Assembly: GCA_949317995.1 (NCBI GenBank)
Contig: OX439037.1
Span: 17,410,324-17,474,323, forward strand
DNA from: Acholoe squamosa
Lineage: Eukaryota; Annelida; Polychaeta; Phyllodocida; Polynoidae
Direction of reading: 5' to 3'
DNA length: 64,000 nt
The notes beneath the pieces are model-generated. The model did not search any database. It was not told where the DNA came from and was given only the letters and a program-made list of their open reading frames with translations. The position numbers were made by a program, and so were the translations under genes. This document shows, piece by piece, positions 26,395 to 61,255 of the stretch. How positions within the stretch are numbered: the first letter of the stretch is position 1; every line of letters begins with the position of its first letter.

Positions 26395-26782
26395 CATATG
26401 GTCGATAGGCACCACTTGTCGTCATTTGGTCATTCTGCCTTCTGTGGTTAATAAATCAGTGAAAATAATATATACACCTGTCATTATCATTCATTCTGAT
26501 AGCCCAGGGTTAGAGCTACATGGGGAACCCTAGTTTTCCATACATCTGAAGGATATTTTGGGAGTGAGGGGCCTAGAACTACCCAAAAAAACTCGTTTTT
26601 TAGGCAAAAAATCGAAAAATCCACATTTAGAGATAAATAAAAAAAAAATTACTGGTAGGAGGGCCCATAGATATTTCTAGGCAAATGTATAATTAGTCTA
26701 AGAAATTTTGAAGAACTTTTAGGTATGTATAGACTTAGTTATTTATTTTCTGTAATAAGAAATGTGGTTGGTTAATTTTCGA

Positions 26783-27193
26783 GGCGATTCGTCTCACGCC
26801 CAAAGATGGGGGTCTAGCTATAATATACACACAGTGCATGGTCTATCTATACCATCCATTTTCTCTGCAAACTTATACTTGTATATGAGAAAAAGAAAAT
26901 TAGAGTCTGGGTCCTGCAAAGAGCAGAACAGAATGATTGATGTACGGTGGGGTAGTCTGGGGCTGAAGCAGAGGGCGAATCGTCTCACGCCCTCAATTTC
27001 TATATATATATCCAAATTTTTTAGGGTTTTTATATTTAACCATCCTTATTCATATCACAAAGCACCTACATATCAAAGGTATAAGACATGTCAAGGGCAT
27101 TTTCCTGCTAGCTCCATAGCAATAGATATCACTATACAAAGGCAGAGGTCGACCCGGAGCGAATCGTCTCACGCCCAGCGATTCGTCTCACCC
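26783..27193 (+). repeat. Element 1 word cluster, left (four copies)
   Basis: Copies of GGCGAATCGTCTCACGCCC or close variants start at about 26783, 26974, 27157 and 27177 (the last two adjacent), all in the same orientation, upstream of the ORF1 transcript start region. Confidence 0.95.
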
Positions 27194-27240
27194 CCTGGCG
27201 GTTTTCGCTAGAACTAAACCTATGACCCGCCATCTGGTGT

Positions 27241-27308
27241 AAAAGACAGGAACGTTACGGACGCAGGCGCTTTGGAAGTTTGTCGCCGGTCGACTAAACG
27301 TTTTCAAG
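27241..27308 (+). promoter_or_regulatory. Probable 5' noncoding exon of ORF1
   Basis: A GC-richer stretch ends at TTTTCAAG followed by GTAAGAAAT, a good splice donor. The intron would run to TTCTTGCAG before the ORF1 Met at 27737. Two word copies in reverse orientation (27526-27544 and 27686-27704) lie within this intron. Confidence 0.45.
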
Positions 27309-27736
27309 GTAAGAAATTGATGAAAAATTATGCTTTAAACCATTAATTTTCAAGAAATTTGATTAAATAATGTAGAAAACATGCTATAGACTGTATTGAT
27401 CGAGCTAAGTGTGGTAATTAGGGCTGTAAATCACCTCAGCAACATGTAAACATTACGCTCGGCCGATCTGGTTCACTTTCTGCCGTTAGTCTTATGTAAA
27501 ATGAAGGCAGAGGTATGTCAGTGTCGGGCGTGAGACGATTCGCCTGTCTCAATGAAGTTTGTTTGTACTGCATATTTTCTGGTCTGACCTGGCCTGGCAT
27601 TACCATATCATAAAGAATACTAACACACACCCTGTCTTGTCCATTTGGTACACTTATCCCATGTTAGGCATAGTCTGTAGGTGTCGGGAGTGAGACGATT
27701 CGCCCATGTATGTTTTTTTATAATCTATTCTTGCAG

Positions 27737-28948
27737 ATGCCTTACAAAGACCCAAAATCCCCAGCGGCCTTGGAGAGTGCTCGTAAACGGTCGAAGAGGT
27801 CTTATGACAAGAAAAGACAAACAGAGGAGAAGAAGATGGCCAAGAGGTTGTCAGATGAGGTAACTTTACCTGTTATGTAACTTAAGGAAGTATATTGGAA
27901 GTATATTGACACTAAGTTATCACTAAGAATTATTATTTTATTATGATTCTTAAATTATCTTATTCTTATTCTTTCAGAAATACAAACCAAAGAGGAAGGG
28001 CATTGATGAGCTGGACCCAGAGCTCCAGGAACGTCGCCGCGAATCAAAGAGAAGGTACAAAGCGAAACTGAAAAGGGCCAAAGGTTTGTACCTGTACTAT
28101 GAGTCCTGTTCCAATAATAATAATGATCATGATAATAATAATAATAACAACAACAACAATGATAATAATAATGATAAATAACAATAACAATGATAATTAT
28201 GATAATCAAATGATAATTATAATAATGATAATAATTTAAGTCTTGTCACTTTTTATAATATTTTAAATGAAGATGCTGCACGTGAGGCCGAAGCCGAGGC
28301 AGCACCTGAGGCCGAAGCCGAGGCAGCACCTGAGGCTGAAGCTGAGGCAGCACCTGAGGCAGCACCTCTGCCAGCACCTGAGGCAGCACCTCTGCCAGCA
28401 CCTGAGGCAGCACCTCTGCCAGCACCTGAGGCAGCACCTCTGCCAGCACCACAACCCGAAGAGCCCGTAGCTGGACCTAGCCACCAAACTCCAACTCCAA
28501 CAAAAGGCAAAGGGAAAGGTAGAGGGAAGTCGTCCCGTAGAGTGCAGGGAGTGGAGGCAGAGCCTGCCCTACCCCTTCCCGAGAAGCGGCGTAAGCCAGA
28601 TCCTGGCTCTGCTCGGTGAGTAAAACATAAAATTTATTTCCCCCCATCTTTTATTTGTAATACATGAAGCACCTTGTCATTTCATTCAATTTTTTTTTTT
28701 GTGTGTGTCTATGTTGTTTTTTTTCTGTTAAAAAGAATTTTTCCTTTTCTTCCAGCAAACATTTCACAAGATCAAAATCAACTCCCCCTGTTAAGCCCCT
28801 GCCCTACCCCCACCCCATTGCTACCATGGAGAATATTGTGGACAGGACCTGGGAAGAAGGGAAGAAGAAGAAGAAGAAGCCACTTTCTCCCACTAAAAGT
28901 CCGAGGACGAAATTTGCCCATTCTCTAAACCTGAGGAAGAAAAATTAA
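27737..28948 (+). CDS. Element 1 ORF1: spliced basic protein, likely DNA-binding (254 residues)
   Basis: Four coding exons fit both frame and GT-AG rules: 27737-27859, 27978-28083, 28273-28615 and 28756-28948 (765 nt with the stop). The N-terminus (MPYKDPKSPAALESARKRSK) and exon 2 are rich in Arg and Lys and probably helical, like the basic N-terminal regions I associate with proteins carrying the ORF2 signature in other animals. Exon 3 is dominated by an EAAPLPAP-type low-complexity repeat; exon 4 ends in a KKKKKK-containing tail. The second intron of this set is a (GATAAT)-like microsatellite (about 28110-28245). Role is inferred: binding the repeated 19-bp word or assisting transposition. 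It could also be spliced to ORF2. Confidence 0.7.
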
Positions 28949-29215
28949 TATTTAACTGCATTTAACATAATCTAAGAAAGTTCTTATATATATACATGTA
29001 TGTACAGACAGCAAGGTGCTTCTATTTAAGAGATGTAAGATGTAACATGTACACAGATATTTAAAAGTCTATATATATATATATATTTTTCTACCCAAGA
29101 AGAAGGAATGGCCTAACTTATATAAATGCTGTAAATGCTATAAAAGTACTATATTAGATCTATTAAAGTCATTTCTCTCACCTTTAATAAAAGGTATTTC
29201 TCGTTGAACCATAGC

Positions 29216-29480
29216 GTTATGTGTTTGCTTCATGATTTTTTTAGGTCTTAACTCTATCCAGGAAACATTGCACAACAGGAGAATCGTCTCACGCCCGAAC
29301 GGTCCCAACCTCTGGTTAGAACCGTCCACCTTTTTCCCATACATCTGCTGCTGCAGGCGAATCGTCTCACGCCCGAACGGTCCTAACCACTTGAAAGAAC
29401 CGTCCACCTTTTTCTTATATATTAGCTGCTGGAGGCGAATCGTCTCACGCCCGTGTGTTTGGTCATTTCTTTGGTAGTAA
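29216..29480 (+). repeat. Left copy of the ~260-bp direct repeat flanking ORF2
   Basis: It begins GTTATGTGTTTGCTTCATGA and holds three copies of the 19-bp word (29279, 29356, 29434), each but the last followed by GAACGGTCC...GAACCGTCC, an imperfect hairpin. It is repeated at 32470-32735. Confidence 0.92.
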
Positions 29481-29498
29481 CCCTTCTCACATAGAGAT

Positions 29499-32243
29499 TT
29501 GACTCAGTTCTTATGGTTCACTTCTTTTATCAATTACAGTCTTGTTGTCGCCTTGCCGTTCTCTCGCCAGAGTAAGGCAAGGGCAATGAAGAAGGAGCTG
29601 GATGCTGCACAACAGGAAGTAGCACAGCTACGTAAGCAGCTTGCTTCAGCAGCTGCTGCGGCTATGCGTCATCAAGGTGACCCAACCACTCCAAGGGCCG
29701 CAAGTGTACCGCGGCAACCTACCACTCCAAGGGCCGCAAGTGTACCGCGGCAACCTACCACTCCAAGGGCCGCAAGTGTACCGCGGCAACCTACCACTCC
29801 ACGGGCCGCAAGTGTACCGCGGCAACCTACCACTCCAAGGGCCGCAAGTGTACCGCGGCAACCTACCACTCCACGGGCCGCAAGTGTACCGCGGCAACCT
29901 ACCACTCCAAGGGCCGCAAGTGTACCGCGGCAACCTACCACTCCAAGGGCCGCAAGTGTACCGCGGCAACCTACCACTCCAAGGACTGCAACTCTCCCAC
30001 CACCATCTAAGCAACAACCTCGTCGTCCAGTAGTGAGATTCTTTCATGCGCTGAGAGGAGAGACCCCACCTCCTGGGTTTGATAATCATGAACCAGCAGA
30101 TCCACAGGTGATCCCACCCCCTGGTTTGGAGGGTCATGAACCAGCAGATCCACAGCCACAAGTGGAAGCTGCACCGGTTGAACCAGCACCAGCTCCACAG
30201 GCAATCCCACCCCCTGGTTTGGAGGGTCATGAACCAGCAGATCCACAGCCACAAGTGGAAGCTGCACCGGTTGAACCAGCACCAGCCCCTGCATCCCCAT
30301 TGACACTTACGATGAACAACATGGAGGAATTGAACATCACTCCGACAAGTGATAGGGTGAAGGCCTTCCTCACCCTACAAATTGCTGCCAGCCAGGTGAA
30401 GGCGAGTTCTGTTGATGTGAAGAAAGGCCTGTTCCGGGAGCCTGTGGCCGGCAAAAATTATCATGGAACACTTGGCTTGCTCGCGGAGACCGTACAAATT
30501 TCTCGTGATTATATATGGAAAGAGAAAGAGCCGAGCACCGCCAGAATCGATAAAAGGGAGGCCACTAAACAATCTATTATTGACTTCATGAAGCGTGACG
30601 ATAACTCTTACATGTTGCCAGACAAAAGACACCAAACCAAAAATCAGCAGCGTTACGCTCTTGGAGATACGTTAATTAATCTACATAGGAAGTACTGCTC
30701 AGAATTCGAGAACATGACCCTAGAGTATTCCACCTTCAGGAGAGCCAGACCATGGTACATCAAACTCAATCACTTCCTAAAACGCAGCGTCTGTTTGTGC
30801 AAGGCACATGCAAATATGTCACTTATGATGGACGCTGTTCCAACCCTACCGAAGAGCACCACTGCCATGACAAACAACTATACTGATGAGGCCATAGAGA
30901 TGGAGCTTCAAAAGATGAACAAGGAGATGGTCTCATACAAGCAATGGGAACGGGTGAGCAAGAAGGTGGAGAGCATAGTTGACAAGAAAATTGTGACCAA
31001 GGAAGTCCATCACACTAAACTAGTCACCAAGTCAGAACCAAAAGAGGTGTTCATAAAGACCTTCCTTGCTGCCCTGCCAGGGTTCCGTGCACATTGTGGC
31101 AGAGTTGAGGCGCAGTACCGTGAGATGAGGAGGCTGGAGGAAAATCTGCCAGTGGGCCATGCTGTCATTCTAATGGACTACTCCGAAAACTGGAACTGTG
31201 CCTATCTGCGTGAGATCACCTCAGCCTACTATTCGAAGGATCAGATAACCATACATCCTATGGTGGTGAAAATACGATCACCAGAAGGCCTCCTCATAAC
31301 TCACACATACGTAGGTGTGACATCCGTTACCTCCCACTCCTTTCCAACTACCTTCACATTCATACAGAAACTTATAGAAGATATCAAGGCATCATTTTCA
31401 TATGTGACATCCATACACTTCTGCACGGACAGTCCCTCCTCACAGTACCGTAATAGGCACGTGATTCAGATGCTTCTAAGGTTTACCAGTACCTTCGGCC
31501 TCGTCGCAGCATGGAATTGGCTCGAGGCCGGGCACGGGAAAGGCCCCTGCGACGGGGTCGGAGGAGCTATGAAGCGCCTGGCTGACCGCATCGTAAAGAC
31601 CAATCAGATCATCCAATCGGCAGACAACTTTGTGGAGAAGGTTGCACCAGCAACCAAGGTCCAACTTGTCCAGGTTACATCCAGGGAAGTGATGGAGTCA
31701 ACAAAAGAGGTTGAGGACTGGGACAGCCCAGGTGTGGCTGGGCTTATGGAAATGCACCAAGCATGTGCTTTCCAAGATGCCATCTATGTCCGGCGCACCT
31801 CATGCTACAGAGCTTGCTGCATGAGCACTGGGCAGCTTGTACCGGGGTGTGCCGGATGGTACAAGACCAAGGTTGTGGCAAAGGAGGAGGAAGACGTCTG
31901 TGAAGACTCGGATGAAGAGTTCGACTTTGAGGGGGAGTCAGGCTACGACACTGAGGACGAGCTTCCTCTAGCCCATCTCCCCAACTCTGAGGACAGCTCT
32001 GAGGAAGACACCCCTCTTGCCAACCTCAAGGCCAACATGGAGGATGACCTCCCTCTTTCTCAGGTGAAGGCACGACTTGCTGCTGAGAGTGACAACGATG
32101 ATGTCCCCCTCCCTCAGCTAGTTAGGTCGAGGGTAGCCAAGTCGAGGGCAACCAAGTTGAGGGCAACCAAGTCGACCTCCGCCAAAACCAAGGCCACCAA
32201 GGAAGTCCAAGTACATCTCCGCAGGTCATCGCGGAAGAAGTAG
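29499..32243 (+). CDS. Element 1 ORF2: candidate DD(E/D) transposase (914 codons)
   Basis: Part of the N-terminus may be intronic: TTTATCAATTACAG at about 29525-29538 is a good acceptor, and the Met at 29586 (MKKELDAAQQEVAQL, coiled coil) is an alternative start. Then come about nine copies of a 12-residue repeat (TTPRAASVPRQP; 29686-29990), two to three copies of a PPPGLEGHEPADPQ repeat, and the conserved body. The body has RPWYIKLNHFLKRSVCLCKAH, ILMDYSENWNC (D560), CTDSPSSQYRNR (D644) and WLEAGHGKGPCDGVGGAMKR (E676, D685). The order and spacing fit an RNase H-like nuclease. From memory, similar unnamed proteins occur across cnidarians, arthropods and deuterostomes, but I cannot tie them to a named superfamily. 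The C-terminus is acidic, then Arg/Lys-rich. Confidence 0.8.
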   Translation: MTQFLWFTSFINYSLVVALPFSRQSKARAMKKELDAAQQEVAQLRKQLASAAAAAMRHQGDPTTPRAASVPRQPTTPRAASVPRQPTTPRAASVPRQPTTPRAASVPRQPTTPRAASVPRQPTTPRAASVPRQPTTPRAASVPRQPTTPRAASVPRQPTTPRTATLPPPSKQQPRRPVVRFFHALRGETPPPGFDNHEPADPQVIPPPGLEGHEPADPQPQVEAAPVEPAPAPQAIPPPGLEGHEPADPQPQVEAAPVEPAPAPASPLTLTMNNMEELNITPTSDRVKAFLTLQIAASQVKASSVDVKKGLFREPVAGKNYHGTLGLLAETVQISRDYIWKEKEPSTARIDKREATKQSIIDFMKRDDNSYMLPDKRHQTKNQQRYALGDTLINLHRKYCSEFENMTLEYSTFRRARPWYIKLNHFLKRSVCLCKAHANMSLMMDAVPTLPKSTTAMTNNYTDEAIEMELQKMNKEMVSYKQWERVSKKVESIVDKKIVTKEVHHTKLVTKSEPKEVFIKTFLAALPGFRAHCGRVEAQYREMRRLEENLPVGHAVILMDYSENWNCAYLREITSAYYSKDQITIHPMVVKIRSPEGLLITHTYVGVTSVTSHSFPTTFTFIQKLIEDIKASFSYVTSIHFCTDSPSSQYRNRHVIQMLLRFTSTFGLVAAWNWLEAGHGKGPCDGVGGAMKRLADRIVKTNQIIQSADNFVEKVAPATKVQLVQVTSREVMESTKEVEDWDSPGVAGLMEMHQACAFQDAIYVRRTSCYRACCMSTGQLVPGCAGWYKTKVVAKEEEDVCEDSDEEFDFEGESGYDTEDELPLAHLPNSEDSSEEDTPLANLKANMEDDLPLSQVKARLAAESDNDDVPLPQLVRSRVAKSRATKLRATKSTSAKTKATKEVQVHLRRSSRKK

Positions 32244-32446
32244 ATGATGCTTGTGTACTAGTGTATTTACCTTTCATCCATCCTGAGCATTTCTCCATGA
32301 GCCTCCACTTGTATTCCCTGGTGGACAGGTAGGTCCGGCTTCCCCATTTGTGTGGTGCGGCCAGGGGACTGGTGGAGACTTATGAAGGAACGCTCAGGAT
32401 GGATGAAATTTTGTATAAAGTTGTATATATATATGCTTCTACGACA

Positions 32447-32735
32447 GGAGAATCGTCTCACGCCTGAACGTTATGTGTTTGCTTCATGATTTTTTTTAGG
32501 TCTTAACTCTATCCAGGAAACATTGCACAACAGGAGAATCGTCTCACGCCCGAACGGTCCCAACCTCTGGTTAGAACCGTCCACCTTTTTCCCATACATT
32601 TGCTGCTGCAGGCGAATCGTCTGACGCCCGAACGGTCCCAACCACTTGAAAGAACCGTCCAACTTTTTCTCATATATTAGCAGGCGAATCGTCTCACACC
32701 CGTGCGTTGTGGTCATTTCTTTGGTGTTAACCCCC
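32447..32735 (+). repeat. Right copy of the direct repeat flanking ORF2
   Basis: From about 32470 it matches 29216-29480 closely, including three word copies (32533, 32611 with one change, 32683). A further word copy at 32447 precedes it. Microsatellite (TAATAG)-like sequence follows at about 32825-32885. Confidence 0.92.
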
Positions 32736-33041
32736 CCCTGTAGTAGTAGTTATACCATTATCGGAGAATTGTATGTTGTACCCTGTACACACCCCTTGCA
32801 TGTATTAATCGTTAAGAGAGGGGTAATAATGATAATAATAATAGTAGTAATAATAGTAATAGTAGTAATAGTAATGATAATGATGAAATGTTACGCAGTT
32901 AATAAATGTTATTACATGTTCAACTGTTGTTCAACTATCATCCTTTCATAGCCCCTTTATGGTGAGAATCATGTTTGGTCATTTCTGGGGGCTTAACTGG
33001 GGGCTTAACTGTCCTGCAGTGTTGGTACCGTCATGGGGCTA

Positions 33042-33454
33042 GGGCGTGAGACGAATCGCCTGTCGGGGCGATTCGTCTCACGCCCTGGACAGGAGCTCTA
33101 GTGGTCTGATGCTTTCAGGCAGGCCTAATAACGATATAGCAAGATGAACTCATGGTCATACCTTACTTATTCATAAATAAATAAATAAATTTATTCCATT
33201 TTACATTTAGTTATGGTATTTGATAGGAAGGGGTGTAGGATGTACTGGTGTTTCCTCGTACCACATAAAATTTCAACATTTTCTCTCACACTGCAAAATG
33301 ATGGACATCAAAGCCAATGTATATGTTTTATGGTCCATATTATCAGGTTAGCTGTCTATTTTCATAACCATTCGCAATAACTAAGTTAGATAATATATTA
33401 CAAGGTCTTAAGGCATCCCACAATACACAGGGTTAGGGCGTGAGACGAATCGCC
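33042..33454. repeat. Element 1 word cluster, right subterminal (three copies)
   Basis: A reverse copy (33042-33060) and a forward copy (33067-33085) form a near-perfect palindrome around TGTCGG; another reverse copy lies at 33436-33454, about 170 bp from the element end. The stretch between 33100 and 33430 shows no gene. Confidence 0.93.
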
Positions 33455-33655
33455 CCGTCACTTTTCAATCTTGGACATGCCTTCTTCACCAGGGTGGTGT
33501 AAGTAGAGTTTTCATATTTAACCTACCCCAATATGTGGATGTTATGGTCCAATCCCTGTAGTATACACACAAAAAAACTTTAACATGTCCTACTATATTT
33601 ATTCTGGGGCCCCTCCCACCCCAAATGACGACAAGTGGTGCCTATCGACCATATG

Positions 33656-41552: not shown

Positions 41553-42714
41553 ATGAGTGGAAGGAAGACCGGTAGGTGTGCTACCCGTAGCCATGCTATG
41601 AGTGACACAAGCTCCACCGATGTTGACGCCGCCACCGAGACGCTGGTGACGACGAACCCTAGCAACAACACCACTGACACCCAAGGTGTCGGGGCTGGGG
41701 GCAACACGGCGACACCAACGCCGTTCGACCTCTCGGCCATATTTCAGGTTCCCAACTCGGGTATGTTCATGGGCCAGATGCTGTCATGAATGATGATGCT
41801 GATGATGCAGGGTCAGGCTCAGGCCACGACCCAGGAAGAGGAAGACACGGCTGAAGTTATGGAACCAGAACCAGCAGCTTCTAAGGCACTGCCACCGGGC
41901 AAGCTTCATTACCTGATGACGGTGAGGATCGTCAAGGAGAAGGAGAAGTCCAAGAAAGGGAAGGAGCTCTTGCCACTAGTGAGTGACCTCCTCGGGTCGC
42001 TCTTCTCTGAGAAGAGGACATGGGCGGACCTCGACCTCGTTCACGGGTCGTATCCGCAGCCAGACAACGCGGCCAAGCTAGTAGCACCTGACCTGGAGCC
42101 TGCACTGCAGGCACTGCTGAACAGGCTGGGCAGCGCTGAATACCTTAAGAGGGATGAAGCGCTGAAGAAGCTCCAGATGCATCTGGTGAAAGCGATGTTA
42201 GCTTTCCAGCCAGTAATCAAACTGTGGCTCTCTCGAGGATAGTCGGACTCTAAGTTGGATGACTGCGGATAGTCATTCATAGATGGCATGCAGCTGATCG
42301 TCAGCACGATCAACACTCGCCGAAAGGATCTCCTCAAGCTGGTCATCATGCCCATGTATGGGGAACACCTCCTGAAGAAAGCAGGCAACGATCCTAAATA
42401 CCTGCACGGTGGTAACCTTGAAAAGGCCATCAAGGAAGTGGATGCAGTCCATAAGATGGCGGAGAAAAATCCCAGCCGAAGACCGCCCCCGGGAAGGCCA
42501 AGCCCGCTCCGAAGCCGCAGCAACGAAGGCCGTACCCACCAAATGGCCTAACAACGCTCAAATGGCTATGGCCATGCAGGGGATGAATTTCCCCCGAATG
42601 CCCATAGTCTTCCCGCAGATGGGCTACAATATGGCACCCCGGTTCAGCGCCCCACGCAACCCTCGGCCCCCGGCCCCACCCGCTGCAGCAGCCGGAAAGA
42701 AGCCGGGTTTTTAG
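41553..42714 (+). pseudogene. DIRS Gag-like ORF, broken
   Basis: The frame starts MSGRKTGRCATRSH at 41553, hits a stop at 41787, and continues (41790-42242) with an acidic segment and a helical region (KGKELLPLVSDLLGSLFSEK, LEPALQALLNRLGS). After a stop and a frameshift, 42288-42714 adds MQLIVSTINTRRKDLLKLV and a Pro-rich basic tail. Position and composition match the first ORF of DIRS/Ngaro elements. At least two lesions. Confidence 0.75.
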
Positions 42715-42725
42715 AAATAGGGCCC

Positions 42726-44480
42726 TTGGAGGAGCAGGCAAGTCCCCTTACATTTATTCACACTGCTAAAAACCTTGTAGCTGGGAGCATATCGAGATTT
42801 GTCAGCCAGTGGGTGGGAATAACTAGAGACCCCTGGGTACTGGGCATGGTGAAAGGGATTTCCATACCGTTCGAAGACCTCGTACCCTGTCAGGACAGAA
42901 TGCCCTTCCCTTATGTCTTAGGCCCTGATAAGGAGGTCCATGTCAACAAAGAAATAACCAAATTGCTGGACAAAGGGGTAGTAAAAATGGTCGAACCGAC
43001 AGAGGGTCAATTCATCTCAAATGTCTTTGTCAGGCCAAAACCAAATGGTGACTTTAGACTCATTTTAGATCTCTCGAAAATGAACGAATCGGTTAAGTAT
43101 GAACATTTTAAAATGATCAGCCTGAATACAGCGATAGAGATGATGAGACCCAGCTGTTACATGTCGTCCATTGACCTTAAAGACGTTTATTACTCTGTAT
43201 TAGTCAGAGATGAAGATAGGAAGATTCCTTTGGAACGATAACCTCTATGAATTCCAAGCTATGCCCAATGGGCTAGCTTGTGCCCCTCGCATATTCACTA
43301 AGATTCTTACCCCAGTGTTCTCCAATCTCAGGGAGATGGGACATGAGTGTTTCCAGTACATACATGATTCTTTCGTACTGGGGGAAACAGAGGCACAATG
43401 CAGGGAGACGACCGACAAACTAGCCCAAGAACTAGATAGGTTGGGGTTCGTAGTGCATACAGGGAAATCAGTTTTTGAGCCTACGCGGAATCTAATTTTC
43501 CTAGGGTTCCACCTAGACTCTGTCACTATGACAGTCCGGCCTACTAAAGAGAAGGTTGAAAAATTCACCATGGCTATCTGGAACCTAGCCAATACTGATG
43601 ACCCCTACACGATCAGGGACATAGCGGGGATTGTGAGCCTCATGACTTCTCTCTCGCCGGGTGTCCAATATGGCCCGGCACACATAAAGGGTCTAGAAAG
43701 AGAAAAGAACCTTGCCCTTGAAAGGCACAAGGGCAACTTCGATTCACCCATGGTTATTGGCGAGGAAGGTTTAGAGGATATCAGTTGGTGGCTGGAACAC
43801 CTCCCCACAGCTTCCAAGCGCATTCGAAATGAGGGGGCAGACTTTGAAATCATAACAGATGCCTCTGGTACAGGGTGGGGTGCCCACAGGGGTGCCACTT
43901 CCACCAAAGGTATTTGGAAGGAGGAGGAGGTAGACCTCCACAGTAACATTCATGAGCTAACAGCCATTAAATTAGGCCTGAAGCACTAGTGGCAGAGAAC
44001 AGGGTCAATGTGAAAATAAGAACTGACAACACTACATCACTGGCTTATGTCAGAAAAATGGGTGGGGTTAAGTCTGAACCATGCAATAAGATAGCCAAAG
44101 AAATTTGGGAATGGTGTGAAGAACAGGACATTTGGCTAACAATAAACCACATCCCGGGGAAGGACAACGTCCTGGCTGACTACCTATCTAGACACTTCTC
44201 GCATGACCTAGAGTGGGAACTAAGTGAAAAGATTTTCAAAAAGGTGTGTAATATCTTTAGCAAGCCTGAAATAGATCTCTTCGCTTCTCAGTTAGGCGCC
44301 TGGGAAATTGACGCTATGTCAATAACTTGGATGAATAACTATATGTACATTTTTCCTCCTTTCAGCCTCTTGGGGCCCGTGATACAGCGGATCCGGCTGG
44401 AGCGGGTGAGAGCCATCCTGATAACACCAGACTGGCCGGGACAGCCCTGGTACGGCAGACTACAGCGGTCCGGGTGGTGA
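42726..44480 (+). pseudogene. DIRS reverse transcriptase, RNase H and methyltransferase-like region
   Basis: RT motifs run across two overlapping frames (42726-43241 and 43210-43989): NVFVRPKPNGDFRLILDLSKMN, SIDLKDVYYSV, then MPNGLACAPRIFTK. The catalytic box reads YIHDS instead of YxDD, so the first catalytic Asp is replaced by His. RNase H follows (ITDASGTGWGAH ... DNTTSLAYVRKMGG, IPGKDNVLADYLSR), split by a stop at 43989. The end has EIDLFASQLGAWEIDA and FPPFSLL, the linker typical of DIRS elements. Inactive. Confidence 0.92.
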
Positions 44481-44539
44481 ATGCTCAGGTTTAGGAAGGC
44501 CAAGGGCAACCTCTGTCATCCGGGGAAGCCGGCCAACAA

Positions 44540-45480
44540 AGAGTGACTGTCGGTGACCCCGCTCTTGGCATTTCGGACATTCTAAGAGCAGAACTGTCTC
44601 ACCAGGGATTTGATGGCCACACCATCGAACTTATCACACAAGCCCGTAGGCCCGCCACACGGAAGACGTACAACACATACCTTCGTAAGTGGTACGCCTT
44701 CTGTGCGGAGCCTGACACATGAATCCTCCAACCGGCGATCCAACGAGTGTGCAAGTTCCTGGTGAAACTGGCCAAAGACAAAAACGGCTACACCGCGCTA
44801 AACGCTGTTTGTTGTGTGCTCTTGGCCATTCTGGGCGACTTCCAAGGCCAATCAGTGGGCCAGCACCCCTATGTAAAGCTGCTTCCGAAGGGGGCTTATG
44901 AGATGAATCCACCAGCCCCTAGATACCAGGAGTTCTGGGATGTGAGGAGGGTTCTAGACCTCCTACAAACCTGGGACAATGGCACCACCGCACTCAGGGA
45001 GCTCTCCATGAAACTGGCCACTTTGCTCCTCTTAGTCACATCACAAAGAGGCCAGACCATCGTCAACCTTTCCATCCAAGATCTGAAAATGGGCGACAAG
45101 GTGGTATTCAAAATGACAAGGCTCCTAAAGTCTAACAGGTTGGCGGACCCCCTCAACACGATAGTCCTGAGGAAGTTCGACCAGAACCCTAGGGTGTGCG
45201 TTGTTAGGTGCCTAGAAGAGTACCTGAAACACACCCAAAACAAAAAGAAAAGAGCGACAAAAAACTCTTGGTCAGCTTGGTCTCGCGATACACTCAGCCG
45301 TTGGATCATGGTCGTGCTTAAAAAGGCTGGTATTGATGTCAACCAATACAAGCTTCACTCCACCAGAGGGGCCTCTGCCTCAGGCATCCTTAAAGTTGGA
45401 GGCAGGCGGAGTCTTTCATGAAGTACTACCACAAACCAATCAAGGACGTGGTAGGGGGAAATGCGCTCCTCGAACAGTGA
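44540..45480 (+). pseudogene. DIRS tyrosine recombinase
   Basis: Conserved residues are visible: the first Arg in TSQRGQTIVNL (about 45040), HSTRGASAS (His and second Arg, about 45355), and the nucleophile Tyr in MKYYHKP (about 45420), the last after a frameshift. It would integrate the circular DNA copy. The N-terminal part (SHQGFDGHTIEL, about 44600) is broken by stops near 44720. Confidence 0.9.
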
Positions 45481-57589: not shown

Positions 57590-60561
57590 TTTTTAGCCAG
57601 TGCCTATATAACATTTGGAGTTCAAGGCAGTCATTTCATCCCCTTCCCACTCCACTTTGAAAAATCTGGGGGTTCTTTTGTCAAACAACCCGGCTCTGGC
57701 AGCAGGGTTGATGTAACCATAAGTTACCCAATGCTTTGGTTTGAACATAGGTTTCTCTGTGGTGAGAATTTTTACAAGATTCAGAGGGCAATCATTTGTG
57801 ACTTTCTCTAAAGAAAGCCTCAGGTTTTTCAGGGATTATCACACCTTCTAGATTCTCTGCACTCAAAGCAAAGTAGAATCTGTCGGTGTCCATTTCACAC
57901 ATTTCAAAGTCTTTTTCGTCTATGTACTCAAGAAATAGAATGCAAACATTTTAAGTTTGGCATATTGGTACACCATGAAACCTTTTTTAACCGGAAGGTC
58001 TTGGGTGATGGAGGTAGGTAAACAAGAAAGTTCTCCCGTGTATCACTTAAGTCTTGTGCATCTTGAACTGACCAGTGCAAGGCTAATCGTTTTGCCTTAG
58101 AGGGGGACATATACTTTGTTTGAACAAAGTTTTGCTTGTTGCATATGGTTTTACTGTATGACCCATTTTCAAGCACCTTGTAAAGATCTGAAAGAATTTT
58201 ACAGTCCACGATTTCATCACCTTTTCTCCTAGCTCTGATTACTTCTTCCATAAAGGGTAAAAAAGTCTTTTCTGGGGTGTATTCTACAAGGAGGTTGACA
58301 GTGGTTACTACCAAACCTTTTTTCAGATACCACTGTAAGAGAGGAGTTCCCGTTTCGCGTTTAAGCTTACCTGTGGCTTCCAAGAAACGTCTCATATGGT
58401 CAACTATGTCTTTCCTGCCTACTAGACAGTTTTTAAATATAGGTGTCATTTTACTGAATTTGTTTTTCAAGTGCTCAGGTGTTTCTATGTCCAATGGATG
58501 AGTCCAAAAGTTGTTCCAGCTAAATCCCCTCTTAGTATTTCACTTTTTCTTCCTTGACACGATGGTCTTTTAACTTCCCATTGACTTTTTGTTTTTTGAC
58601 ACAAGTCATTTGTTTTTTCTCTCATCCACATACACTCGTACTGTTCAACTACCTCATACCCCAACATTTTCAAATAGAGGGTAACTAAGGCAGTTTTTTT
58701 TGGCTTTTTCTTCTAGCCATTCTCTTTCTTGTGGATTTTTTAAAACCGACTTAGTAAGGTGACACACGTGACCATGCCAGTAGCACCCATGAAACTGATA
58801 TATTTTCTTTTAAGCTGGAACAAAGCCGTCCACCTTTATTTTCCTTGAACCTAAGCTAATCTCCCCATAGTTGTATTGATGTAAAATGTTTAGGTTGTCT
58901 GTTAAAGCTTTGTAATGTTACCATTCTGTGGCTGAGTAGCTGATTTGTTGACTACACACTGCTTGAAAATCATTTTCTTTCCTACGCACTACATAAAATC
59001 CTGTGCAGTGAGCTTCTCCCATACACTTTAGGTACAAGCTTTTAGGGTCCACCCCTACTACATGTTTGCAAACTTTGCTTTTGGGACAGTATTTCTTTTG
59101 CCTAATTTGCCTTTTCCCACTCTTGTGATATCTGTGAAAGATGATAGAAGGACCCCCAACTAAGTTGCGTCTCAGGAAGGAATGTACATCCTATTCTTTT
59201 TCACCTAAAAGGATGTAAGGTGTGGCGTTAGGAGCAGTGTTGTTAAAGAGAAACTTCAAGGTAAGGCCAGGTAAAGCACATCTTTGAACCCCGCGTTCTA
59301 TGACAAATTTGCTGTGTTCGTTTATAGCCAAAACAAATGGTTTCACGTCCAAGTTGTTGAAATATATCAAGTAGTCCTTAATAGGTTTTATGTTGTTTTC
59401 TGACCAGGCCTTTTGACAACTCTAATATTCTTCTTTGGTTAACCCACAACCTGAGAGAGAGCTGTAAAAGCATGACCTTGAAGGAAGTTTTGTGTTTTCT
59501 ATTTTTCTTACATTGTCCATTCACTCGTATGGAAAAAAGCAATTTTCAGCACTACCTTTAAGGAAGGCTTTAAGGTAGTTGGCGTAGGAATACCCCGGAG
59601 CCAGGTAGTTGAACATGTCAAAGAAAAGAAGGTGACAATGTACACTGCTATGTATTGATCGCACCTCTTTATGGTGTTCATTTCTGACTTGTCTGTCTCT
59701 ATAAAAAATGAATGAAATTCTTTTTTGGTCAAATAAAGATCATACTTGCCAGAGTTGAAACCTAGAACAGGTCCTTTTTCTATGTAGGCAAGAAGACAAT
59801 TTTTAACTTTAAGTATGTGATAACCTTTGTTTTTTTCGCCTATTTTTTTGGTTGGACAAACTTTGGAAGCTTGAACTTTTAATTCTTTTTCTTTTTCTGC
59901 AAGAGTGTTTAGTTCATTCAAAACCTGACTAAATTTCTCTTTCACAAACTCCCCAATTATTTTTCCCAAGTTGTTTATGTACTCCAACACAGTCTTAACC
60001 AAAGGATCGTCTTCCCTGTTTGAACTTCTAACAAAGCACACAGGTTCTGTGTGTCCTGGAAAATCGGAAGCTACCCTGGCAGAAAGGGGTATGTGTTATT
60101 TTCTATCACAGTTTTTTTCATATAACTTCAGGTTTAACGAAGTAGCTTTCAAATTCAAAAATAATCTTGTAAGGATATATTTTTGTTTCAGGCTCAGAAA
60201 CTATTCCCAATTCCTCTATAAGTTGAAAAACTGTTTTGGCTGGATTGTAAACTCTGCCTTTGTACCTGAAGTTCACTTTTGTGCAATCTTTTTTCACCCC
60301 ATTGTGTTGTTTGAGAAGGAAACTATAAGTAAAAACTTTATGGCACAGTTCACAGAGGTAAAACCTGCCATACAGTCCCAAGTTTGTAATCAAACTTACA
60401 TGGTTCCTGTACAGGTTTAAGTTCATAATGTTCTTTCCTGAACACATTTTTGACCTTATAATTTTAACCTGACCTTTTTTAACTCTAACTAGTGGCTTTG
60501 CCACTAGAGTTTGAAGCAATGGACTTTTAAATATAACATTGATGTCGTTTTCACGGCCCAC
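57590..60561 (-). pseudogene. Polinton protein-primed DNA polymerase B, central and C-terminal part
   Basis: Read on the minus strand: a Cys/His finger (CELCHKVF, about 60375), an exonuclease motif GFNSGKYDL (about 59755), polymerase motif A with GVDPKSLYL (about 59055), a motif B region (KTICNKQNF, about 58135) and motif C with MDTDRFYF (about 57885). The tail YINPAARAGLFDKRTPRFFK (about 57650-57710) is typical of Polinton enzymes. This order and the YDL, DxxSLY and DTD residues define the family. Multiple stops and frame changes (for example 58500, 58680, 59430) separate the parts. Confidence 0.88.
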
Positions 60562-61255
60562 TGTGGCCTGTTTTCAAGGCCCACTGTGGCCTGTTTTCAC
60601 GGCCCACTGTGGCCTGTTTTCATGACAAAGTGTGTCTGTAGTGATGTGGCGTAGTGACGTGACGTTGCCTAGTGACGTGACGTTGCCTAGTGACATGACT
60701 TTGCCTAGTGACATAACGTTGCTTAGTGATGTGATCTTTTGTAAAAAAGAGATCACATCACTCTCACAGCAGATTCTCTTGAAGGTTTGAGTTATTGTTT
60801 TTTTTCTAATTTCTCGGAAACTACAGATATGATTTCTATGTATGAGGTATTGAATTATTGCTATCAATGCATACACTACAGGTGATTTAAGATTGAGAAG
60901 CTAAAATTTAGAACAAAACTGAGGAAGGGCCGGTATCTTTGAATAGAGATCCAAGATGGCGGACATTGCAGAAAAAAAGTACAAAATAGTCTAGATCCTT
61001 TGATGTTCTGTTCTGAAAACCATTTATATTTCATTGTAAATGAAGCCTAAGGTTTAGGTGGTAAGTAGAAGTCTAATAGCATATGGGCATATAAGAACAT
61101 TTAAATCCTTGAAAGCGTTTTGAAAAATCGAGTTAACTTTGAGAAAATTACATGGTAGCCTCTACTTCCACTGATTCTTGACAAGCATTCAAGTCTATTT
61201 CAATGAGGGAGGGTACCAGCAAAGAAGAAATACTGTTTTTAATATAGTGTAAAAA
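60550..61255. repeat. ~700-bp insertion in the polymerase gene with two tandem arrays
   Basis: Three copies of GGCCCACTGTGGCCTGTTTT (about 60554-60622) and then five ~19-bp units of GTGACGTGACGTTGCCTA type (about 60650-60735) break the polymerase frame. The polymerase-like sequence resumes near 61260. The middle has CCAAGATGGCGGAC. Probably another non-autonomous element; ends not defined. Confidence 0.6.

Follow-up and report, generated by a model that had tools for sequence, protein, structure and literature searches.

A recently mobile DNA transposon of Acholoe squamosa, most likely of Sola type, with dispersed motifs that differ between sister families

The locus described here raises the question of what kind of mobile element sits within a minus-strand gypsy copy in the polynoid annelid Acholoe squamosa, and where exactly this insert begins and ends. 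The window, that is, the whole stretch of 64,000 nucleotides that was analyzed, covers positions 17,410,324 to 17,474,323 of the forward strand of contig OX439037.1 (assembly GCA_949317995.1), and coordinates are counted from its first letter. An earlier note, made from the letters alone, had described the insert as a complete DNA transposon with two genes, the second of which (ORF2) was thought to encode a transposase of a possibly unnamed superfamily. On the basis of copy comparison, alignments of ORF2 relatives, and sister families in the same genome, we consider it likely that the insert is a cut-and-paste DNA transposon that was active recently and has a probable transposase of the DDD type (three catalytic aspartates), arrays of a motif bound by its own protein, and a single gene with two products.

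Borders, target duplication, and recent spread

The element, designated family A, has the following borders, all obtained by comparing copies.

26400..33650, plus strand: complete DNA transposon, 7,251 bp (ends and duplication compared across 19 copies)
26400..26429, plus strand: left terminal inverted repeat, 30 bp, GGTCGATAGGCACCACTTGTCGTCATTTGG
33621..33650, minus strand: right terminal inverted repeat, 30 bp, perfect
26396..26399, no strand: target duplication ATAT, left copy
33651..33654, no strand: target duplication ATAT, right copy

These borders could not be fixed from the window copy by itself, because the CATATG found on both sides of the insert is a palindrome; the nested position, previously taken to define both ends, leaves them ambiguous, and copies were needed. 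Twenty stretches were fetched from the 1.48-Gb genome, of which 18 contained both exact ends (L022 and L023, in which the right end had no exact match, were left out), giving 19 copies together with that of the window. The inner 4 bp of the flanks are identical in 18 of the 19 and differ by one base in the other, L016; the duplicated 4-mers comprise 15 ATAT, two GTAT/ATAC, and one ATTA/TAAT. The outer bases of CATATG, however, mismatch between the left and right flanks in many copies. The element therefore runs from 26400 to 33650 with a 4-bp duplication, rather than from 26401 to 33649, and its inverted ends, which begin with GG (GGTCGA...), are perfect as described earlier over 30 bp instead of 29. 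Both the 6-bp reading of the duplication as CATATG and the 2-bp reading as TA were dropped after this comparison.

The window copy alone would also be readable as an IS3EU element, either with CATATG as a 6-bp duplication or with TATGG...CCATA as its ends, since PMC12730594 and PMC10045372 give TAYGG..CCRTA ends and 6-bp duplications for that group. Considering that the duplication is 4 bp across copies, that TA is part of the target, and that an integrase (rve) match is absent, this assignment was rejected as almost certainly wrong.

Removal of the insert had been said to restore the gypsy integrase. With the flanks translated separately and one CATATG counted, the frame is indeed continuous over the junction (...MLVDK/HMDDWDEQ...); further upstream, the gypsy copy is interrupted by stops and a frame change, so that the frame is mended at the junction only.

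When the host genome was searched as suggested, the left 600 bp proved to be present in at least 40 copies; 40 of the 415 candidates were scored. Median pairwise divergence among the 19 compared copies is 0.36%, with a largest value of 1.2%, and two copies on different contigs, L016 and L027 (lengths 7,342 and 7,341), show zero base differences. The ORF2 core lies in an open frame of 837–944 codons between stops in 18 of the 19, the exception being L030, a copy with a 5-kb deletion. With the core protein as query, at least 80 genome matches were obtained (1,545 candidates, 79 scored). Those listed include 23 that are 99–100% identical across the full query and free of stops and 16 at 50–53% identity, which we take for other families; the remaining listed matches are at 77–97% or partial, many with stops. 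Taken together, the ends, the duplication, the near-identical copies, and the open core frames strongly support a complete, recently mobile DNA transposon, as the earlier note had proposed. The copies are young, the transposon was apparently active recently, and, given how little its copies differ, it is a candidate for a functional animal transposition system.

At one further locus (G000 C9:73103720-73124378), a full copy is followed by four truncated ORF2 matches at 99% with a spacing of ~6.4 kb, probably a tandem amplification.

Conserved residues of the ORF2 core and probable relation to DUF7869

Residues are numbered on the ATG-started protein P0001, so that the D560, D644, E676, and D685 quoted earlier become D531, D615, E647, and D656. 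The predicted catalytic positions are listed with their conservation in the 121 rows of alignment A2.

31176..31178, plus strand: first catalytic aspartate, D531 (DYSENW), 121 of 121 rows
31428..31430, plus strand: second catalytic aspartate, D615 (DSPSSQYRN), 120 of 121 rows, one with glutamate
31551..31553, plus strand: likely third catalytic aspartate, D656 (GHGKGPCD), with E647 as the alternative; 121 of 121 rows, in the DUF7869 register

ORF2 is open and carries the quoted motifs, as was seen in the sequence before. D531, D615, and D656 are invariant in a second set, A3 (57 members), and the stretch from D615 to D656 measures 40–41 residues in all 121 rows of A2. The first two aspartates of the proposed triad are thereby confirmed as conserved. 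For the third position, which had been given as either glutamate or aspartate, D656 is more likely than E647, because it is invariant in both A2 and A3 and aligns with an invariant aspartate of the Pfam family DUF7869, whereas E647 has no conserved counterpart there. ORF2 is accordingly described here as a probable DDD transposase.

The DNCxGQNKN and GHTxxxxD motifs of DUF7869 prompted a search with PF25273, which gave 63 matches in the genome of the window after scoring of 89 candidates. DUF7869 and ORF2 present their motifs in the same order (DYAQQ/DYSENW, DNCxGQNKN/DSPSSQYRN, and GHTKFxPD/GHGKGPCD), and DUF7869 proteins differ in missing a conserved acidic residue at the E647 position. Profile comparison by hhalign on first-sequence columns gave a score of 31.5 over 410 columns (E 6.4e-6, probability 68%), compared to a mean of 2.4 and a maximum of 12.7 in a column-shuffle control (n=100) and 0.97 for the reversed profile. 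When full alignments were used, the three aspartates fell in register with those of DUF7869, and E647 was again without a conserved acidic partner. The profile match and the aspartate register therefore suggest distant homology and lend support to DDD; ORF2 looks like a distant relative of DUF7869.

Several observations weigh against this assignment. E647 is present in all 121 rows of A2 and at 90% or more in A3, so that a DDE triad stands as the less likely alternative, and the RNase H fold is a prediction from the motifs. BLASTP of ORF2 against a DUF7869 protein gave zero similarity, and a direct hmmscan of P0001 with Pfam did not find DUF7869. The hhalign values on full alignments are weak (E 0.0079, 0.0054, and 0.0021; probability 5–13%), and the stronger value of 6.4e-6 holds for the first-sequence columns only. 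Loci of 3.5 kb were too short to reveal where DUF7869 elements end. No mention of DUF7869 was found in the literature searched, most subscription journals lying outside the search. DUF7869-type proteins in insects go by the name Sola2.

Some relatives, P0122 and P0124 among them, have a possible C-terminal Tudor-like domain (Pfam matches below the cut-off; PF21743 in 4 of 57). This Tudor-like end is seemingly missing from the ORF2 of the window.

Placement among transposon superfamilies

Relatives of the core numbered 143 proteins at E<=1e-3 (7,999 candidates scored; 120 listed), and a profile search returned 206 at E<=0.01 (8,000 scored; 120 listed). Among the matches listed, five 90% clusters contain more than 100 sequences (392, 255, 209, 119, and 104), as expected for a multicopy element. 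Few of the 120 listed relatives bear names; those that do are called uncharacterized, hypothetical, or unnamed proteins and come from Branchiostoma, Haliotis, Mytilus, and one bacterial metagenome-assembled genome. The Pfam search proposed earlier gave zero matches for P0001 at E<=1. For 30 ORF2 relatives, a transposase model was not among the 19 families matched at E<=0.1; it was not found for six relatives at E<=5, nor among the best 25 of 112 families for 57 relatives. Protein-alignment scans of the genome-contig and viral-contig collections returned zero relatives, and the end sequence had zero matches in the viral-contig collection.

The missing Pfam matches and the uninformative names could be taken to indicate that the ORF2 clade forms a superfamily of its own, outside every named one and with DUF7869/Sola-type transposons as its sister group, and no paper describing the clade was recognised in the literature searched, which excluded most subscription journals. 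We regard this as rather unlikely, given that Sola is already defined by a DDD transposase and a 4-bp duplication (PMC10741241), that the clade occurs in well-studied animals and may hence well be held in Repbase, and that the profile link to DUF7869 speaks against isolation. The idea of an unnamed superfamily is therefore not supported in the form in which it was put forward; the core looks like a distant DUF7869 relative, and a probable DDD triad together with a 4-bp duplication fits the Sola definition.

According to the same source, Sola (Sola1, Sola2, and Sola3 in Repbase) elements measure mostly 2–9 kb and have inverted repeats of 11–1124 bp. The present element shares the 4-bp duplication, the size, and the inverted-repeat range, probably has a DDD triad, and is most likely Sola-type, with the caveat, which counts against the placement, that the comparison is with the published description. 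In this way, a protein family nameless in Pfam gains a transposon that is defined down to its exact ends and target and was apparently active recently.

Other superfamilies were rejected on sequence features. The C/DxxH between the second aspartate and the last acidic residue in hAT, P, MuDR, Kolobok, and Dada is absent from D615–D656 of P0001, as are the CxxC and H(3-4)H of EnSpm/CACTA and Transib. The TA duplication of Mariner/Tc1 and the TTAA of piggyBac and Kolobok differ from the 4 bp seen here (ATAT, GTAT/ATAC, or ATTA/TAAT). The literature basis also includes PMC9587614, PMC3706591, PMC10294476, PMC4455052, PMC5199201, PMC7998251, PMC5753468, and PMC9783078.

A probable single gene with two products

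The coding parts of the element are proposed to be arranged as follows.

27737..27859, plus strand: exon 1, coding part (MPYKDPK...), basic, GT donor, phase 0 (splice signals; family B counterpart)
27978..28083, plus strand: exon 2 (KYKPKRKG...), basic, phase 1 end (splice signals; tblastn to family B)
28273..28615, plus strand: exon 3, Ala/Pro-rich with a GKGKGxGK tail, phase 2 end (splice signals; family B tail alignment)
28756..28948, plus strand: exon 4 with stop, end of the short product of 254 aa, ORF1 (splice signals)
29540..32243, plus strand: exon 5, ORF2, joining exon 3 in frame, 1,091 aa (splice signals; PFSR/PFSK in relatives and family B)

Two apparently intact genes had been counted in the insert. 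ORF2 is open as stated, and ORF1 and ORF2 are better read as probably one spliced gene with two products, because exon 3 joins ORF2 in frame, a PFSR/PFSK stretch follows the join, and matching exons occur in a sister family, family B. The proposed exons 1–3 bear GT donors and AG acceptors, and the phase 2 end of exon 3 is compatible either with exon 4 and its early stop or, in frame, with the ORF2 exon at 29540. At least seven of the 30 proteins in alignment A1 have PFSR or PFSK at or near their start, matching the residues right after the ORF2 acceptor, and in family B the stretch lies just past the place of the acceptor. The exon series of family B is similar: alignment of exons 1–3 between A and B scored 207 against a shuffle maximum of 117 (0/1000), with a family B peptide that omits a few residues at the exon joins, and exons 1–2 only scored 89 against 77 (0/1000). 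The exon 3 tail scored 121, which was reached by 0 of 1000 shuffles. With exon 2 as the query, the best tblastn match to family B was at the expected place (E 0.004), followed by an unrelated one (E 0.019). As points against the single-gene reading, a profile of basic N-terminal regions from 19 relatives picked by pattern gave no significant match to ORF1, and the alternative splicing is deduced from sequence.

A single pre-mRNA would thus yield two products, a short basic protein from exons 1–3 and exon 4 and the full transposase from exons 1–3 and exon 5. This arrangement would resemble maize En/Spm, with its tnpA and tnpD, and other CACTA elements, in which alternative splicing of one gene yields both a small protein that binds DNA and the large transposase (PMC2613891). 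CACTA elements differ in their CACTA ends and, in the case studied in PMC2613891, a duplication of 3 bp, as well as in the CxxC and H(3-4)H that the present core does not have.

In addition to the probable DDD core, exon 5 contains a Cys-rich stretch, an acidic/basic tail, and a coding 36-bp minisatellite, PTTPRAASVPRQ (~29682-29990), which varies from 1 to 10 uninterrupted units among copies. L042 and L044, from sister families, have different repeats at the same part of ORF2.

Dispersed 19-mers and the partly shared site layout of sister families

The non-coding parts of the element harbor an array of a 19-mer, GGCGAATCGTCTCACGCCC, a feature overlooked in the earlier note.

26783..27195, plus strand: four copies, at 26783, 26974, 27158, and 27177
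27526..27704, minus strand: two copies, at 27526 and 27686
29278..29452, plus strand: three copies upstream of ORF2, at 29278, 29356, and 29434
32447..32701, plus strand: four copies downstream of ORF2, at 32447, 32533, 32611, and 32683
33042..33085, both strands: two copies in opposite orientation, at 33042 (minus) and 33067 (plus)
33436..33454, minus strand: last copy, 196 bp from the right end
29215..29483, plus strand: ~270-bp direct repeat bracketing ORF2, left member (94% identical)
32469..32733, plus strand: ~270-bp direct repeat bracketing ORF2, right member

The 16 copies seen at <=3 mismatches, compared to 0.00 expected (100 shuffles), all belong to the element and avoid its proposed exons. 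In the window outside the element, there are none at <=4 mismatches, one at 5, and seven at 6. Across the 19 compared copies of the element, 16 sites are found in 13, 15 in five, and 12 in the deletion copy. Three bacterial matches to the 19-mer in the genome-contig collection were taken for chance.

Two sister families, with ORF2 53% and 50% identical to that of family A, carry other motifs of 18–20 bp. Family B (L042 and L043) has 14 copies of GCGTGGTCACGTCTACGACC, and family C (L044 and L045) has 12 and 16 copies of TAGACCCGAGAGAGACCC. The A and B motifs were not found in the other family at <=4 mismatches, nor the C motif in the window or L042 at <=3. In the ends of A and B, 20 of the first 30 columns are identical in all four, and the 4-bp flanks of family B are identical in one of two copies with one mismatch in the other. 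BLASTN of A against B (E<=1e-3) aligned one 97-bp coding piece and nothing else.

The positions of the sites, given as distances in bp with strand, are as follows; the left end of family C was outside the fetched stretch, and its strands are given for the scanned motif read in reverse complement, an orientation picked for its fit.

Family A, from the left end: 383+, 574+, 758+, 777+, 1126-, 1286-
Family B, from the left end: 382+, 562+, 726+, 744+, 1107-, 1447-, 1472-
Family A, from the right end: 196-, 565+, 590-, 949+, 1021+, 1099+, 1185+
Family B, from the right end: 186-, 549+, 910+, 930+
Family C, from the right end: 189-, 547+, 911+, 963+

Between A and B, eight ordered same-strand matches within 35 bp were counted, a number reached by 0 of 20,000 random layouts, and the 5' side alone was equaled by 2 of 20,000. 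On the 3' side, B and C agree to a degree seen in 1 of 20,000 random layouts and A and C in 427 of 20,000. Much of the layout persists even though the site sequences are replaced together, and we read the motifs as probable sites of a DNA-binding protein that the element itself encodes and that would have changed its specificity with the layout retained. Some results weigh against this interpretation: the A-B layout on the 3' side alone is weaker (352/20,000), the 35-bp tolerance was picked once the distances were known, the site numbers of A, B, and C are unequal, and the binding itself is deduced from the motifs.

The sharp edges of the 19-mer copies would suit any DNA-binding protein, and the three copies directly upstream of ORF2 occupy a possible regulator position, so a host factor might instead recognize the motifs of the non-coding parts, making them insulators, silencers, or small-RNA targets. 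This is unlikely: the three families share a genome, yet each has a motif of its own, with many sites in corresponding positions, a pattern for which one host factor would not account. Neutral internal duplication, with motifs spread by recombination within the element, would account for some of the copies, since six of the 16 sites lie in the ~270-bp direct repeat, three per member. As a general explanation it is very unlikely: the other 10 sites are outside the repeat, with unrelated-looking flanks and sharp edges, and the families, though their non-coding DNA had zero BLASTN matches, correspond in the position and strand of their sites.

If the element's own protein is the ligand, the 19-mers would be bound by the part common to both products, or by the N-terminal region of ORF2, loading protein on both arms and beside ORF2. 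Such loading would help the two ends pair and may also regulate transcription, as with TNPA on En/Spm. The DDD core would then cut at the inverted repeats and insert the element at ATAT, where the target would be cleaved with a 4-bp stagger. Family-specific repeated motifs bound by the small protein are also described near the ends of CACTA elements (PMC2613891), whereas the present motifs flank the internal ORF2 exon too. Several transposase sites inside the transposon are described for Galileo (P superfamily) and piggyBat as well; these belong to other superfamilies, and the sites of Galileo lie within long inverted repeats.

We put at about even the chance of a broader reading, in which this animal transposon superfamily has a protein-binding lattice of 12 to 16 sites, with many positions and orientations constant and the site sequence replaced wholesale between families of the same genome, so that the lattice would serve each family as a code for recognizing itself, keeping sister transposases off each other's ends. 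Three families with three motifs and one layout in one genome offer a natural experiment on how DNA-binding specificity changes with a dozen or more sites to match.

Other features of the window

Two further regions were noted from impressions of their translations.

42552-45418, plus strand: open frames resembling a reverse transcriptase, then a tyrosine-recombinase-like protein, as in DIRS-type retroelements
57931-60573, minus strand: open frames, maybe a Polinton-type or virus-type DNA polymerase B

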